NCBI GenBank assembly: GCA_019685555.1
Contig: JABFQN010000017.1
Location: 1-36,641, forward strand
Source of the DNA: Candidatus Bathyarchaeota archaeon A05DMB-3
Lineage (GTDB): Archaea > Thermoproteota > Bathyarchaeia > Bathyarchaeales > Bathycorpusculaceae
Length of the DNA stretch: 36,641 nt
Reading direction: 5' to 3'
The notes under the pieces were generated by a model. That model was not told the origin of the DNA. It made no database searches and was given only the letters and a program-made list of their open reading frames with translations. The position numbers were made by a program, and so were the translations under genes. Of the stretch, positions 5,278 to 17,783 are shown in pieces. Positions within the stretch are counted from its first letter, which is position 1; the number at the start of each line of letters is the position of its first letter.

Positions 5278-5707
5278 AGAAGAGCTGAGAAGGCTTAGTG
5301 TTGAAATGCGCATTTTAGAGCAGACAGCGGAAACCCTACAGGCAAGAATGAATATGATAAACGCAGTTATAACAGACCTAACTTACGCTAACATAACGTT
5401 GGAGGGTTTAGAAAAACAGAAAGAAAACGCAGAACTCCTCATCCCCATTGGAGGAAACTCCTACATAAAAGCGAGGCTTGAAACTCCAGACAAAGTTACT
5501 GTGGGAATAGGCTCAGGTGTTTCGGTTGAGAAAACTTTGCAGGAAGCAAAGGACATAATCAAGAAAAGGCTTGAGGATATGGAAAAAAACAGAGCTTCCC
5601 TCCAGCAGCAGTTCTCACAAGTTGTTGAAAGAATTAACGAGGATAGAGCCCGTTTTGAAGAGTTGGCAGCTGAGTTAAGGAAGGAGAACCCCTCCAAGAA
5701 TGTTTGA
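5261..5707 (+). CDS. pfdA: Prefoldin alpha subunit
   Basis: Subunit of the hexameric prefoldin chaperone, which passes unfolded proteins to the thermosome. The sequence is two long coiled coils (residues about 1-45 and 90-145) joined by beta-hairpin segments with IPIGGNSYIKARL and KVTVGIGSGVSVEKT, diagnostic of the alpha class. Start: TTG 5261, with GGAGAAG upstream, gives 148 aa; TTG 5246 is the alternative. It overlaps LX by 17 nt, and its stop overlaps the ftsY ATG, so translation is probably coupled. Confidence 0.92.
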   Translation: MASKVEEELRRLSVEMRILEQTAETLQARMNMINAVITDLTYANITLEGLEKQKENAELLIPIGGNSYIKARLETPDKVTVGIGSGVSVEKTLQEAKDIIKKRLEDMEKNRASLQQQFSQVVERINEDRARFEELAAELRKENPSKNV

Positions 5708-6605
5708 GAAGCTTAAGTCTGGATTAAACAGTTTAGTGAACAAAATTACAACCACCGAACTTAAAGCTGAAAATCTCCGCCCCACACTTTCCGAATTTAA
5801 ACTAAACCTAATAGAAAACGATGTAGCAGTGCCAGTGGCGGAACATATATGCAGCGAAATGGAAAAACGCCTAGATGGAGTCCAAGTTAAGAGACTTGAA
5901 GATAAACGGAAAATAGTGGAGAAAAACCTCCGCGAAGTGCTTCTGGAAGTTATGCTAACCAACAACAAAATAGAATTGTTCAAGGCTATTGAAGAAAAGC
6001 GTCGGAAGAATGAACCTTTTGTCATAGTTTTTGTTGGAATAAATGGCACTGGAAAAACAACCACTATAGCGAAAGTCGCTCGGCTTTTAAACAGAAAGGG
6101 CTACACTGTTGTGCTTGCATGCAGCGACACCTACCGTGCAGGCTCCATCGAGCAATTAGAAAACCATGCTAGACGTCTAGGCGTAAAGATGATAAGACAC
6201 AAATACGGTGCAGATCCAGCGGCGGTAGCTTACGACGCAATAAACCACGCAAAAGCCCATGGAATACACGTTGTTTTGATAGACACTGCTGGGCGAATGC
6301 AGACAAACAGAAACTTGATGAACGAACTTGCAAAGATTAAACGTGTTGTAAACCCCGATTTGACAATTTTAACAGTAGATGCGTTAACGGGAAACGACGC
6401 AGTCATGCAAGCTGAAGAGTTCCATAAAAGTGTGGGCGTAGACGCCACAATATTAACGAAAGTGGACGCAGACATTAAAGGCGGTTCAGCCCTAAGCGTA
6501 ACCTACGTCACACAAAAACCCATCCTATTTGTCGGAACAGGACAGAAATACGAGGACCTAGACGAGTTTAACCCAGAAAAATTCGTGAACATGATATTAA
6601 GATAA
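5700..6605 (+). CDS. ftsY: Signal recognition particle receptor FtsY
   Basis: SRP-receptor GTPase that docks ribosome-nascent chain complexes at the membrane. The 301-aa protein has a helical N domain (1-100) and a G domain. Motifs seen are GINGTGKTT (G1, 113-121), DTYRAGS (143-149), DTAGRMQ (195-201), TKVD (253-256) and GTGQKYEDL (279-287). There is no long acidic A domain, as is usual in archaea. ATG 5700 overlaps the pfdA stop by 8 nt. It is the last gene of this run and converges with the carbamoyltransferase. Confidence 0.96.
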   Translation: MFEKLKSGLNSLVNKITTTELKAENLRPTLSEFKLNLIENDVAVPVAEHICSEMEKRLDGVQVKRLEDKRKIVEKNLREVLLEVMLTNNKIELFKAIEEKRRKNEPFVIVFVGINGTGKTTTIAKVARLLNRKGYTVVLACSDTYRAGSIEQLENHARRLGVKMIRHKYGADPAAVAYDAINHAKAHGIHVVLIDTAGRMQTNRNLMNELAKIKRVVNPDLTILTVDALTGNDAVMQAEEFHKSVGVDATILTKVDADIKGGSALSVTYVTQKPILFVGTGQKYEDLDEFNPEKFVNMILR

Positions 6606-6626: not shown

Positions 6627-7556
6627 TCAATATTTTCCAAGGAGCTTTAGTAGTATAGCCTTTGCAGAATAAAGCCTATTTCCACTCTGCTCATAAATTA
6701 TTGATTTCGAGCTTTCTATTACATCTGAGCTTATTTCGTAGCCTCTGTGGATTGGCATGTCATGCATTATGTAAGCGCTGCTTCCATGTAATAGCTCTTT
6801 ATTTATTTGATAAGGCATCATAAGCCTAAGACGCTTCTCTTTCTCTGCAGCAAATTTTGGGTCTGTGAAGAACTCCATGTCAACCCATGTATCAGTGTAA
6901 ACAAAATCGGCATCCTTCACAGCTTGTTTAACGTCAAGTGTTGTCTCATACAGCCCGGTTTTCTTGGCTTCTTCAAGAAGCTCATTGTCCCTTGAAGGTT
7001 TATTAAATATCGGCGTCACCGTGGTTATTTTTACCCCAGTTTTTGTGCATCCTTCAATAAGCGAGTTGCAAACGTTGTTGTGAACACCGATGTAAACCAG
7101 TTTCAAGCCCTTCAGTTTGCCTTTCTTCTCCTTCATAGTCATGAGGTCTGCTATGGCTTGGCTTGGGTGGTATTTTTCGTCACAACCATTTATCACTGGA
7201 ACCCGTGAAGCGTTTGCCATAACCTGTAAATCGGCATTTCTAAGAAACCTCGCCATAATACAGTCAACGTTCCGCGACAAATACTGGGTTTCATCATATA
7301 TGTCGGCTATTGCAAAGTTTGTAGTTCTCCAGTCGATGTAAAGCGCGTGGCCTCCAAGCTGGGTCATGGCAACTTCAAAGGAAACTCTTGTCCTTGTTGA
7401 AGTTTTCTGGAAGATCATAGCTAAAGACTTGCCGTCAAGGGCTTTTCCATATTTTTCAGGGTTCTGTTTAACCTCAATAGCCTTATCAACCATTTCCATA
7501 AGCTGCTGCCCAGACAGCCCCTTAAAATTAATCAAATGCATTTTTCCCAGCTCCAT
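6627..7556 (-). CDS. Ornithine carbamoyltransferase-like enzyme (substrate uncertain)
   Basis: Transcarbamylase fold of 309 aa, similar in length to ornithine carbamoyltransferase. The carbamoyl-phosphate site is present: STRTR at 53-57 and HPSQ at 130-133. The amino-acid substrate side departs from the ornithine pattern. The usual V-S-M-G loop reads TWVDME at 223-228, and the usual HCLP reads HDMP at 265-268 (HDMPIHRG), so the ornithine-contacting Cys is Asp. It may still make citrulline in arginine synthesis, but another amine acceptor is possible. No arginine gene is next to it. ATG 7556 is the start; a second ATG five codons on is also possible. It is divergent from dtdA. Confidence 0.8.
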   Translation of the reverse strand: MELGKMHLINFKGLSGQQLMEMVDKAIEVKQNPEKYGKALDGKSLAMIFQKTSTRTRVSFEVAMTQLGGHALYIDWRTTNFAIADIYDETQYLSRNVDCIMARFLRNADLQVMANASRVPVINGCDEKYHPSQAIADLMTMKEKKGKLKGLKLVYIGVHNNVCNSLIEGCTKTGVKITTVTPIFNKPSRDNELLEEAKKTGLYETTLDVKQAVKDADFVYTDTWVDMEFFTDPKFAAEKEKRLRLMMPYQINKELLHGSSAYIMHDMPIHRGYEISSDVIESSKSIIYEQSGNRLYSAKAILLKLLGKY

Positions 7557-7635: not shown

Positions 7636-8472
7636 TTGGGAAGAAAAGTGATTCTGCTAGCGGCTTCCACAAAAGACCCGGCAAGCGTAAACATCACAAA
7701 ACAAATCCTAAACAACTACCCCTTTGAACTCTGCAAGGAAAAATATAAAGAAGCACAAGTTTACACCGCTGAAATTTCGAGACGGGAAGTCAGACTGGCA
7801 GTGCTTGAAAAGGAGTTGGTTTATGCACAAAACATAACTGACTTCGATCCTTCCCTCGAACTCATAATTTTCATTTCAAGGCATAGCAGTGCAAGCGGGA
7901 CCCCAACCCTTTCGGTGCACACTCCGGGAAACCTTGGAGAAGCAGCCTTAGGAGGGATCCCTAGAAAAGTTTCGATTTCCCCTGCAAACGCCATGAGAAC
8001 AGCCCTAAAGACAATGGCAAAACTTGTGGATGAAACGTGTCTCGCTTACAAGGTTTCCTACGAGTGCACCCATCATGGTCCATCAGTGGACAAGCCTACA
8101 ATGTTTGTTGAGCTGGGCAGCTCGCCAAAGCAATGGTCAGATTTGAAAGCCGCGGAAATCGTTGCCCACGCTGCCATGGAAGCTGCTTCAAATTTTGGGA
8201 AAGAAAATGCTGAGGCAGTGCTTGGCATAGGCGGCCCGCATTATAACGAAAAGTTTACAAGAATAGCTTTAGAAAAAGAAATAGCCTTTGGTCACATAAT
8301 CCCAAAATACGCCATCCACGAGGTAAACGGGGAAATTTTAAGGCAATGTATCGAGAAAACCCTTGAAAAGGTTGAGTTGGCGGTGTTGGACTGGAAGGGA
8401 ATAAAGGGTGAAGACAAACCGAAACTTGTTGAAATGCTTGAAAATATCGATATTGAAACCCAAAAAGTTTAA
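7636..8472 (+). CDS. dtdA: Archaeal D-aminoacyl-tRNA deacylase (DtdA/GEK1 family)
   Basis: Zinc-dependent deacylase that removes D-amino acids (such as D-Tyr) wrongly charged to tRNA; it replaces bacterial Dtd in archaea and plants. The 278-aa protein shows the family's blocks: ISRHSSASGTPTLSVHTPGN, CTHHGPSVDKPTMFVE, GIGGPHYNEKFT and AFGHIIPKYA, with conserved His residues as metal ligands. Start TTG 7636, with GAGGG upstream. It is monocistronic and divergent from the carbamoyltransferase. Confidence 0.94.
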   Translation: MGRKVILLAASTKDPASVNITKQILNNYPFELCKEKYKEAQVYTAEISRREVRLAVLEKELVYAQNITDFDPSLELIIFISRHSSASGTPTLSVHTPGNLGEAALGGIPRKVSISPANAMRTALKTMAKLVDETCLAYKVSYECTHHGPSVDKPTMFVELGSSPKQWSDLKAAEIVAHAAMEAASNFGKENAEAVLGIGGPHYNEKFTRIALEKEIAFGHIIPKYAIHEVNGEILRQCIEKTLEKVELAVLDWKGIKGEDKPKLVEMLENIDIETQKV

Positions 8473-12169: not shown

Positions 12170-13192
12170 TCAGTTTTTTGTCGCTGTTGACTTGCCACCC
12201 TTTAAAACCTTGAAAAGCATGATAGGAATCCAGCCGCAAATAATCATCAGAGTCCCAGGAAAAGCTTGTAACGCAAAGGTTAGTATTAAGGTTTCAAAGA
12301 TGAAGAAGGAGGCTGCCATTGCTGCGGCTGACAGAACTGCAAAGTTTTTGCCAAATTTTTTGTAGGTCTGCACTGCTATTAATCCCGCAAAGAAAAAGTC
12401 GCCTAAGCCAAGGGACATGTAAAGGGCTCCTCCCCATTCGGTTATTATTTGGGGAAATGTTGGCACAATTATTAGTATTGGAAGCCTTAACCCAGATACG
12501 TGGATTGCCGCTGAAATCATCGTTCTTGTTACCAGGACAAGGATTATGTCTGCTGCTGTTAAAAGTCCCACAAAAGTGAGGGATGTTCTCCAGGTGAAAA
12601 GGCTTCCGAGGTAGAGGATTATCAAAATGGCGAATACTCCGCCGTACACATTTAATAGGTATGGAAACCATATTGGAGTTTGGTTATAGAAGACATAGAG
12701 AATTAAGAACAAGGCTGGTGGCAAGGCAGCCAAATACCACCTTTCATCCACGCGTGTTCTAGTTTCTTCATAAAGTAGGGCTATGAAGGAAAAACCGCAT
12801 AGACAGAAAAAGGCTGCGGCGCCATAAGCAGCTAAGTCGCTTAAAGAGTTTATGTAAAGGAAGCTGATGGTTGCCGCTAAAAAGCTAACCACAAGAAACG
12901 CCGTACAGAAAATTTTGGCTTTATCTTTTTGGAAATCTGAGAAGATATAAGAAAAAATGAAGAGCAACACTGAATAAGCGAAGAGAAAAACTATCATAAT
13001 AGCCATCCGTGGCACAAGCGCCATAATTGATACTGCCATGCTCATCGCTGCTACAAGCATGAAGGCATCTTTAATCTTAAATTCTCTCTCCTCAAAGGTT
13101 GCCTTCAACTTCCTTTCAACTTTTTCGTTGAGGAGCATGGCTATCACGGTGACAGCAAAAAGCGTCAAGGGCATGGCGATGTCGAAATACAT
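12170..13192 (-). CDS. Presenilin/signal-peptide-peptidase-like intramembrane aspartyl protease
   Basis: A 340-aa polytopic membrane protein with about nine hydrophobic segments. The key signs are the GLGD motif at 262-265 (catalytic Asp265) and an Asp215 in the preceding membrane helix (AADIILVLVTR). These match the paired aspartates of archaeal presenilin-like proteases (family A22). The canonical third motif PAL near the C-terminus is not clear; FPGTLMIICGW stands there. ATG 13192. A 26-nt gap separates it from the methyltransferase gene, which is upstream on the same strand. Substrates are unknown; members cut peptides inside the membrane. Confidence 0.75.
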   Translation of the reverse strand: MYFDIAMPLTLFAVTVIAMLLNEKVERKLKATFEEREFKIKDAFMLVAAMSMAVSIMALVPRMAIMIVFLFAYSVLLFIFSYIFSDFQKDKAKIFCTAFLVVSFLAATISFLYINSLSDLAAYGAAAFFCLCGFSFIALLYEETRTRVDERWYLAALPPALFLILYVFYNQTPIWFPYLLNVYGGVFAILIILYLGSLFTWRTSLTFVGLLTAADIILVLVTRTMISAAIHVSGLRLPILIIVPTFPQIITEWGGALYMSLGLGDFFFAGLIAVQTYKKFGKNFAVLSAAAMAASFFIFETLILTFALQAFPGTLMIICGWIPIMLFKVLKGGKSTATKN

Positions 13193-16470: not shown

Positions 16471-16716
16471 ATGAAAGCATGGTTGGATGTCGCGGTTTTA
16501 CGCTGCCCAAACTGCGGGCGCCATTACATTGAAGCGTCATGGTACGTCTTAGAAATGGAGTCAGACATCGAATGCGGAGAATGCGGAAAAGAATTTAACA
16601 CTAAAAAGAACGCAACGGATAGGGCACTATTAGAATTCCAAATAAACGAAGACAGTAAAATTCAAAAAGTGGACATTGCCAAACGTCTAAAACTAGAAAG
16701 TAGGAGAAAGGGCTAA
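16471..16716 (+). CDS. Small zinc-ribbon protein of unknown function
   Basis: An 81-aa protein with one zinc ribbon: CPNCG and CGECG separated by about 20 residues (RHYIEASWYVLEMESDIE). It is followed by a charged helical tail ending KRLKLESRRKG. The start ATG 16471 follows GGTTGA; ATG 16444 is a longer option. It could bind nucleic acid, but I see nothing that assigns a task. It is divergent from ino1, and its last 4 nt overlap the convergent DUF917 gene. Confidence 0.7.
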   Translation: MKAWLDVAVLRCPNCGRHYIEASWYVLEMESDIECGECGKEFNTKKNATDRALLEFQINEDSKIQKVDIAKRLKLESRRKG

Positions 16717-17783
16717 GGGGTTAACCTTTCAATTGGAACATACTCCTCTGAAATTCCAGACCTTCGGAGGACATCCCTCCAAAGCTCAAGGCCTTTACTT
16801 GTTCTCCATTTCTCTGGTGCCGGCAAGCCCAAAACAGCAAGTTGTTGGCCTCTCACAATTTTTTCAGCTGTTATGCACTTGCCAGTTTTCGGGTGCACAG
16901 GGGTTATTATGTCTGGGGCGATAGCAGCAAGCTTCCCATTTCTGTAGGCGATAAGCACCTCATTTTTGGCTTTAAACTCAAAGGTTTTACCCGCAAACTT
17001 GCCACTTCCTTCAAGTCTCACCGTAACGAAAGTAAAGCCCCCCTTTGTTTCTTTCTCGGCAAAATTCACGACACCTTCAAAAAGTTTGCATCCTTCGGTT
17101 TCCTCCAACACGTTTTTAACAGGATCTTTAGTCTCTCTTAATATTTTTCCAATTTTCATAGCTTTGGATAGGCTTCGTTGGACAGGTGATGTTCTAACTT
17201 GTTCGGCGTTTAAAATTCTCCTTGCAGTATAGGCAGAGTGTTCCCATTCAGCAGCTAATATACGCGCAATTCGTTCAGCAGCCCTTGCATCACGGGTCTC
17301 TTTTACTAGTACTATGTTTTCGGCATGAATATCGGCTACTGTCATGGGTGTAAGCGGGATGTCATCAATCGTATAGACTTTCAAATGAACTTCGGGGACA
17401 GCCCTACCAGCCCCATCCGCGTCCACCACTGGGATACCACATCTTGCGGCGACGTCAACTGCTGCCAACGTGTTAAAACCGCCTAGTTCGACTGGAATAA
17501 CAGCGAAAGCTTGAAAATTAGCGTATTCCTCCAGAACCCTTAAAGTTTTCACTGCAGCTTCAGAATCATAATCTATGGTGGTTGTTGCACCTACACATGC
17601 AAAATTCACGACTTTAGCACCACCGGGCACCTCAGAAGGATCTACAATTTTAACGGGAATCTTATGCGAAGAAAGCTCCTTCACTATTTTATACCCCGCT
17701 TCTGGATCCCCGCCTCCTCCAGCTGAAAAAATTGCAGCTCCATCTACCAGATCAATTAAATCTTGACGGTTCAATGTTCTCAA
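16713..17783 (-). CDS. DUF917 family protein (S-methyl-thiohydantoin desulfurase-like)
   Basis: A 356-aa protein of the DUF917 family, whose N-terminal domain is now named after S-methyl thiohydantoin desulfurase. Evidence is the N-terminal LIDGAAIFSAGGGGDPEAGY-like segment (residues 11-31), then GGFNTLAAVDVAARCGIPVVDADGAG-type segment around 101-127 with VPEVHL, all typical of the family. TTG 17783 is chosen because of a strong GGAGGT 6 nt before it. Many family members sit beside hydantoinases; here there is none, so the substrate is open. Confidence 0.8.
   Translation of the reverse strand: MRTLNRQDLIDLVDGAAIFSAGGGGDPEAGYKIVKELSSHKIPVKIVDPSEVPGGAKVVNFACVGATTTIDYDSEAAVKTLRVLEEYANFQAFAVIPVELGGFNTLAAVDVAARCGIPVVDADGAGRAVPEVHLKVYTIDDIPLTPMTVADIHAENIVLVKETRDARAAERIARILAAEWEHSAYTARRILNAEQVRTSPVQRSLSKAMKIGKILRETKDPVKNVLEETEGCKLFEGVVNFAEKETKGGFTFVTVRLEGSGKFAGKTFEFKAKNEVLIAYRNGKLAAIAPDIITPVHPKTGKCITAEKIVRGQQLAVLGLPAPEKWRTSKGLELWRDVLRRSGISEEYVPIERLTP

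Follow-up and report, generated by a model that had tools for sequence, protein, structure and literature searches.

Dependence of pyrimidine synthesis on an ornithine carbamoyltransferase (OTC) has been described in Thermococcus kodakarensis. In the accessible part of that study, disruption of arcB, which encodes the OTC, or of arcE, which encodes arginine synthetase, leads to pyrimidine auxotrophy, and losing carbamate kinase makes little difference (PMC13260591). According to the same part, carbamoyl phosphate synthetase (CPS) is found in 8 of 42 Thermococcales and accompanies argG/argH (PMC13260591). For the carbamoyltransferase family itself, the available text of a second study lists N167, D231, M236 and a water-bridged K53 as ornithine contacts of E. 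coli OTC. It also gives a Gln in FxQxSxRT, a (Y/W)(G/W)(V/L/I) loop and about 20 extra C-terminal residues as marks of putrescine carbamoyltransferase (PTC) (PMC4581275).

Here we describe a carbamoyltransferase of 309 residues from Candidatus Bathyarchaeota archaeon A05DMB-3, encoded in a 36,641-nucleotide stretch of DNA that we refer to as the window. The protein departs from both textbook OTC signatures, with DTWVDME in the place of DxxxSMG and HDMP in the place of HCLP. On balance, we favor the reading that it is a lineage-specific variant of OTC, which in lineages without CPS would run in reverse and give carbamoyl phosphate for PyrB. We infer substrate and direction of the window enzyme from its motifs, its clade and the presence or absence of genes. 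The reading frame is open, and since the alignment of most clade members begins at the second ATG (MHL, residue 6), the true start may lie five codons downstream. Features of the locus are listed in Table 1.

Table 1 Features of the carbamoyltransferase gene and its neighbors in the window.
Feature	Position	Strand	Basis or remark
Carbamoyltransferase, OTC branch, DME/HDMP variant, 309 aa	6627..7556	-	Family models and Pfam OTCace domains
FQKTSTRTR (residues 49-57), phosphate-binding motif, Lys of FxKxSxRT kept	7386..7412	-	Residues 51 and 53-56 identical in 36/36 aligned clade members
Asn80, 80's loop, place of the usual Gln	7317..7319	-	Alignment only
HPSQ (130-133), carbamoyl-binding motif	7158..7169	-	H130 and Q133 identical in 36/36 aligned clade members
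DTWVDME (222-228), replaces the DxxxSMG ornithine loop	6873..6893	-	Sequence and alignment
HDMP (265-268), replaces HCLP	6753..6764	-	Sequence and alignment
ftsY-like gene, convergent, no functional link seen	5700..6605	+	Name presumed from sequence
D-aminoacyl-tRNA deacylase-like gene, divergent	7636..8472	+	Name presumed from sequence

The site features of an OTC, namely SxRT, HPxQ, an HxLP-type motif and a C-terminal Arg, are all present (STRT, HPSQ, HDMP and R294), and so are R103 and the Lys of FxKxSxRT (FQKTSTRT), the latter in all 36 aligned clade members. The loop reads D222-T-W-V-D226-M227-E228, turning DxxxSMG into DxxxDME, and H265-D-M-P268 occupies the HCLP position, with Met for the Leu of HxLP. 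Because D222, D226, M227, E228, H265, D266, M267 and P268 do not vary among the 36 aligned clade members, the DME/HDMP motifs are neither chance nor sequencing error; they are fixed in this bathyarchaeal clade. The catalytic and loop residues checked were identical across the aligned sequences with the exception of position 80. The 80's loop usually donates a Gln to the adjacent subunit. Position 80 is Asn in 34 and Gln in 2 of the 36 sequences, and most ordinary OTCs aligned have a loop longer by one residue, so that the carbamoyl-phosphate site of the window protein is not wholly standard. A first-pass annotation of the locus had read the SMG-type loop as WVDME and HCLP as HDMP, which the sequence and the 36 clade members bear out. 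It had also called the carbamoyl-phosphate motifs intact, which holds for the main motifs but not for the 80's loop, shortened and with Asn for Gln. By alignment, Ser235, Gly237 and Cys273 of E. coli OTC are replaced by Asp, Glu and Asp, and N164, D222, M227 and K51 of the window protein correspond to ornithine contacts and are kept, their roles being those given in the available text of PMC4581275.

The best NCBIfam model for the window protein is NF011379 (PRK14804, ornithine carbamoyltransferase), with 385.5 bits against a cut-off of 373. TIGR00658 is also exceeded (294.1 bits, cut-off 280.85), PRK00779 is just missed (298.8 bits, cut-off 306), and both Pfam OTCace domains are detected. Scores for the N-acetylornithine and YgeW carbamoyltransferase models lie far below cut-off. 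Comparison of a predicted structural model (mean pLDDT 80, with low confidence for residues 77-99, which span the 80's loop) using VIA-align returned OTCs as the top solved relatives, P. furiosus 1a1s reaching a Z of 30.0 and an rmsd of 2.7 over 276 aligned residues. As OTC and PTC entries fall within about 2 Z and aspartate carbamoyltransferase entries within 3, the predicted fold does not decide the substrate.

Several described activities were considered for the enzyme and rejected. PTC is contradicted by FQKTS, by DTWVDME, by the missing C-terminal extension and by a TIGR04384 score under cut-off (233 bits against 500). For the diaminopropionate and diaminobutyrate carbamoyltransferases (DPT/DBT), Asp222 is kept, RWQ is absent and HDMP merely resembles HDLP. 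Aspartate carbamoyltransferase (ATCase) would call for an RxQxER loop, which is absent, and NF002032 gives 153 bits, under its cut-off of 263. LysW-bound or acetylated ornithine was dropped as a general substrate, with no NAGK or LysZ in five CPS-less genomes, the window's included.

To place the enzyme phylogenetically, 300 genomes of the phylum were searched at E 1e-60, giving matches in 108. Copies with at least 65% identity occur in 39 genomes, one of them the window's own; the other 38 copies range from 65 to 87%, the next match falls to 48%, and all 39 holders belong to the family or order of the window's genome. The best 80 of at least 536 relatives from a pattern scan are titled Bathyarchaeota, Bathyarchaeia, Bathycorpusculum, a parent group or uncultured archaeon. 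The DME/HDMP clade is bathyarchaeal. The 36-sequence alignment excludes L027 (from genome G196), the contig-end fragment of G243 and the copy of G271, a near-copy of that of G073. L027 had been omitted for a listed stop that turned out to be the terminal codon of the gene itself, which made the omission needless; in G087 the listed stop precedes the start, and that letter was masked to X and then removed. Lower-identity archaeal sequences of the phylum carry HCLP in 14 of 18 cases (the rest HCMP, HDLP or HPLP) and the SMG loop likewise in 14 of 18. Further HxLP variants occur in L128, L125 and L130 of the same class, in which HCLPAH is changed to HDLPCH or HPLPCH and the loop is of the SMG type.

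In a 48-sequence tree, the clade and a Priestia protein group together within the OTC branch, with 100/100 support and a long stem of 0.83. Their neighbor in the tree is a protein from the same class with SLG/HCLP motifs (97/90), and the pyrB group and the HDLP proteins encoded next to NRPS genes in Streptomyces are placed elsewhere. The first-pass annotation had suggested phylogeny as a check on its reading: nesting among OTCs is what the tree gave, but a characterized enzyme with the same motifs was not found. In the open-licence literature, no paper matched PRK14804, and none joined bathyarchaea with carbamoyl phosphate and pyrimidine or with arginine and citrulline.

The Priestia protein, a carbamoyltransferase from the Priestia megaterium plasmid NZ_CP085446.1, is 48% identical to the window protein and carries TDTWVDME and MHDMPIH; it scores below the NF011379 cut-off. 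Two plasmid records matched at E 1e-50, of which only this one has the motifs, and no relative was found in the viral contigs searched. Its position inside the bathyarchaeal clade (89/77) hints at gene transfer, with a long branch (1.4) that makes the placement unsure. The DME/HDMP carbamoyltransferase opens a cluster (L113, 11995-20683) comprising a PEP-mutase-like protein (318.3 bits, cut-off 319.55), phosphonopyruvate/sulfopyruvate decarboxylase-like subunits, an LLM monooxygenase, an M20 amidohydrolase and two ATP-grasp proteins with L-amino-acid-ligase domains. From its predicted products, this looks like a phosphonate peptide cluster, for which no paper joining phosphonate, ornithine carbamoyltransferase and phosphoenolpyruvate mutase was found in the open-licence literature. 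By analogy to phaseolotoxin, the Priestia enzyme could be a self-resistant OTC. The relative in a phosphonate-type cluster means that the DME/HDMP motif set may serve another context. Compared with the window protein, the Priestia enzyme is encoded by a bacterial plasmid gene, beside PEP-mutase-like and ATP-grasp genes.

The neighbors of the clade genes are housekeeping genes. Presumably, those flanking the window gene are ftsY-like and D-aminoacyl-tRNA deacylase-like. Within the loci of the best 80 of at least 536 relatives, many of which end at contig ends, the deacylase-like family lies up to six genes away in 66 and is the next gene in 58; the corresponding numbers for the ftsY-like family are 39 and 24. 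Elsewhere in the window, 16713-17783(-) encodes an S-Me-THD-like protein (PF06032/PF20906) related to thiohydantoin desulfurases, scoring far below their cut-offs, and 12170-13192(-) is a 340-residue reading frame to which neither NCBIfam nor Pfam gave a match at the thresholds applied.

To see which other carbamoyltransferases accompany the enzyme, PF00185 was run at E 1e-10 on the 39 holders and three non-holders. Exactly two carbamoyltransferases were found in 38 of 39 holders, the remaining one (G243) having one plus the copy cut by a contig end. In the window's genome these are the DME/HDMP protein and pyrB only; a standard argF elsewhere in the genome, for which the first-pass annotation had proposed to look, is thus not present among them. 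Of the 39 holders, 25 have a full argG match (E < 1e-50). A script read the second carbamoyltransferase in 20 of them, and every one is an ATCase, with 67-80% identity to pyrB of the window's genome and with FFEPSTRT and HPLPR. It was seen by eye in three more (G130, G184 and G207), and the remaining two, the G073 relatives G124 and G271, lay outside this reading. Three arg regions were read out of six fetched. Each contains argG, argH, carA and carB, one additionally carries LysW-type ornithine genes (all names by eye), and argF is absent from all three operons. Among the non-holders, G035 and G160 show a stronger PF00185 match, as expected for a standard OTC. G066, from the same family, has argG and CPS and only a pyrB-like carbamoyltransferase match, reflecting either an assembly gap or arginine made without the DME/HDMP enzyme. 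The DME/HDMP protein is the only visible OTC, and hence citrulline maker, in argG-positive holders. Being the sole candidate, it should supply citrulline there, barring an unknown enzyme.

These data bear on the suggestion of the first-pass annotation that the acidic change hints at a different amine acceptor. An enzyme that carbamoylates or decarbamoylates putrescine, lysine or a short diamino acid would fit the three acidic changes around the pocket and the retention of the gene where argG is absent, and the Asp of HDMP is common to the HDLP of DPT/DBT in the available text of PMC4581275. We nevertheless consider such an activity unlikely. The protein is the sole OTC candidate found in the 25 of 39 holders with argG, its catalytic residues are the same in argG-positive and CPS-less lineages, and the ornithine contacts N164, D222, M227 and K51 are kept. 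The Asp of the loop, the Asn and the Lys of FxKxSxRT are all retained here, where that text gives Thr/Ser for DPT/DBT and Gln for PTC (PMC4581275). The NRPS-linked HDLP proteins from Streptomyces sit on a different branch of the tree. With respect to putrescine, the window's genome has no agmatine deiminase, and in four regions read by eye agmatine deiminase is found beside or fused to an AguB-like amidohydrolase, so that no PTC is needed there.

The ornithine reading has to account for genomes in which arginine synthesis is missing. That no arginine-synthesis genes adjoin the window gene had been noted before and is confirmed; the genome, 96% complete, also lacks matches to argG and ASL_C2 (argH), the latter model finding its target in 13 of 14 controls. 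A full argG match is missing in 14 of 39 holders, of which 12 are also without CPSase_L_D3. The full CPS large-subunit model scored above cut-off in 0 of these 12 CPS-less holders versus 8 of 8 others tried. ATCase (pyrB) was read in all 12 and pyrD was matched in 11 (missing in G106); in the window's genome a PyrI gene adjoins pyrB. A pyrD match is also missing in five CPS-positive holders, therefore absence calls carry some error. The correspondence between CPS and argG is imperfect, as G148 and G255 have CPS and no argG, and the absence of CPS in G178, which lies inside a CPS-positive genus, is perhaps an assembly gap. If PyrB works in the CPS-less lineages, they need another source of carbamoyl phosphate.

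Carbamate kinase was rejected as a general source. A scan of the AA-kinase family in five CPS-less genomes, the window's included (G000, G001, G281, G276 and G142), gave two proteins each, all ten being isopentenyl phosphate kinase or UMP kinase, and no carbamate kinase. G118 has one in addition to these two kinases, making one of six genomes examined out of the 12. Citrulline phosphorolysis by the DME/HDMP enzyme is the one candidate source of carbamoyl phosphate found in the window's genome. As to citrulline itself, searches for the ADI family and for agmatine deiminase found no citrulline-forming enzyme there. ADI-family matches are confined to two of 42 genomes, the CPS-less G059 (L134, 1294-2061(-)) and G154 (L135), where DDAH/arginine-deiminase-like proteins below family cut-offs could possibly form citrulline; agmatine deiminase is present in 12 of 42. 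In four genomes (L177-L180), genes for agmatine deiminase and an AguB-like amidohydrolase are found near pyrB, at a distance of one or two genes.

A carbamoyl phosphate supply by an unrecognized synthetase, with the DME/HDMP enzyme otherwise employed, appears highly improbable. The example at hand is an ATP-grasp protein of 405-414 residues (L195-L198; e.g., L197, 1264-2481(-)), present in 8 of 12 CPS-less genomes with 78-99 bits to the CPS large subunit; for the one scanned, the best NCBIfam match is CPS, far below cut-off. However, the protein has a single generic ATP-grasp domain, it was not found at E 1e-10 in the window's genome, G281, G297 or G178, and a synthetase of this kind would leave retention of the OTC unexplained. 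ATP-grasp proteins of 409-423 residues with 47-73 bits to the CPS large subunit occur in 5 of 8 CPS-positive genomes. In the three loci read, the ATP-grasp gene adjoins a gene for a membrane protein that we take to be ECF-S-like.

The enzyme might instead be a relic, an anabolic OTC left after loss of arginine synthesis and without a present role in the window's genome. The absence of argG and CPS would be in line with this, and the CPS state of the group has shifted repeatedly: we count at least 4 changes on the tree of the enzyme itself (36 sequences), one of them being G178, with the gene kept. Selection estimates involving the window's own gene are of no help in this regard, as all three pairs are saturated and dN/dS is not estimable. 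Among the nine CPS-less pairs, three were measurable, with dN/dS of 0.046, 0.070 and 0.072 at dS of 0.9-1.7; one very close pair gave 0.19 and five, including the three that involve the window's gene, were not estimable. Five argG-positive pairs gave 0.02-0.09. Purifying selection acts in several lineages, and for the window's own gene we infer it from these relatives and 87% protein identity. Moreover, the gene is present in 12 of 12 CPS-less holders, a figure that cannot count losses because holders were selected by possessing it, and is open in 11, the G243 copy being truncated at a contig end. None of the copies was seen to be broken, both listed stops sitting at gene ends. With low dN/dS in three CPS-less pairs, unchanged active-site residues and retention in several separate lineages, we regard a relic as improbable.

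No alignment column cleanly separates CPS-less from CPS-positive enzymes (G148 and G255 being placed in neither group); the three that come closest, 139, 108 and 209, still overlap by roughly a quarter and are not part of the motifs. Since active-site residues are alike in argG-positive and CPS-less lineages, one substrate pair, ornithine/citrulline, is the simplest for all. In the variant OTC, ornithine or citrulline would be bound in a rebuilt, more acidic pocket containing Asp226 and Glu228 in the loop and Asp266 after the catalytic His, so that the same amino acid would meet more negative charge near its amino groups. In relatives with argG-argH-carA-carB, the enzyme would make citrulline for arginine. 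In lineages without argG and CPS, it would convert citrulline and Pi to ornithine and carbamoyl phosphate, the latter passing via PyrB to pyrimidines, and the citrulline would come from arginine breakdown or uptake. A further-reaching version, which we put forward tentatively and think rather doubtful, is that in several lineages of Bathyarchaeia that lack CPS the rewired OTC is the sole maker of carbamoyl phosphate, citrulline phosphorolysis feeding PyrB with the DME/HDMP pocket aiding that direction, and with a putative citrulline-forming partner; in the window's genome neither carbamate kinase nor a known arginine deiminase was found.

If the reading as a reverse-running variant OTC is true, archaea distant from Thermococcales would form a second lineage that obtains carbamoyl phosphate from citrulline and not from bicarbonate, and the textbook SMG and HCLP signatures would be dispensable for ornithine carbamoyltransfer. 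Both points would bear on automatic carbamoyltransferase annotation and on the auxotrophies predicted for uncultured archaea.

Among characterized enzymes, DPT/DBT resemble the window protein in having Asp for Cys in the HxLP motif; their loops read (T/S)RWQTTG or TRWQSMG in the accessible part of PMC4581275, whereas the window protein keeps Asp222. The NRPS-linked HDLP proteins of Streptomyces branch apart from the clade. With ArgF/ArcB-type OTC, represented by P. furiosus 1a1s, the window protein shares fold, length, carbamoyl-phosphate motifs, the loop Asp and the ornithine-contacting Asn and Lys. It differs in DME for SMG, HDMP for HCLP and a shorter 80's loop with Asn, and its gene has no adjoining arg genes. 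The ArcE-ArcB route of T. kodakarensis, as covered by the accessible part of PMC13260591, likewise keeps OTC and pyrimidine genes without CPS, argG and argH, and CPS accompanies arg genes in Thermococcales similarly to the bathyarchaeal holders. T. kodakarensis ArcB was compared through its P. furiosus relative, which has SMG and HCLP. One difference is that the window's genome yielded no carbamate kinase; the likeness covers OTC, pyrB and pyrD.
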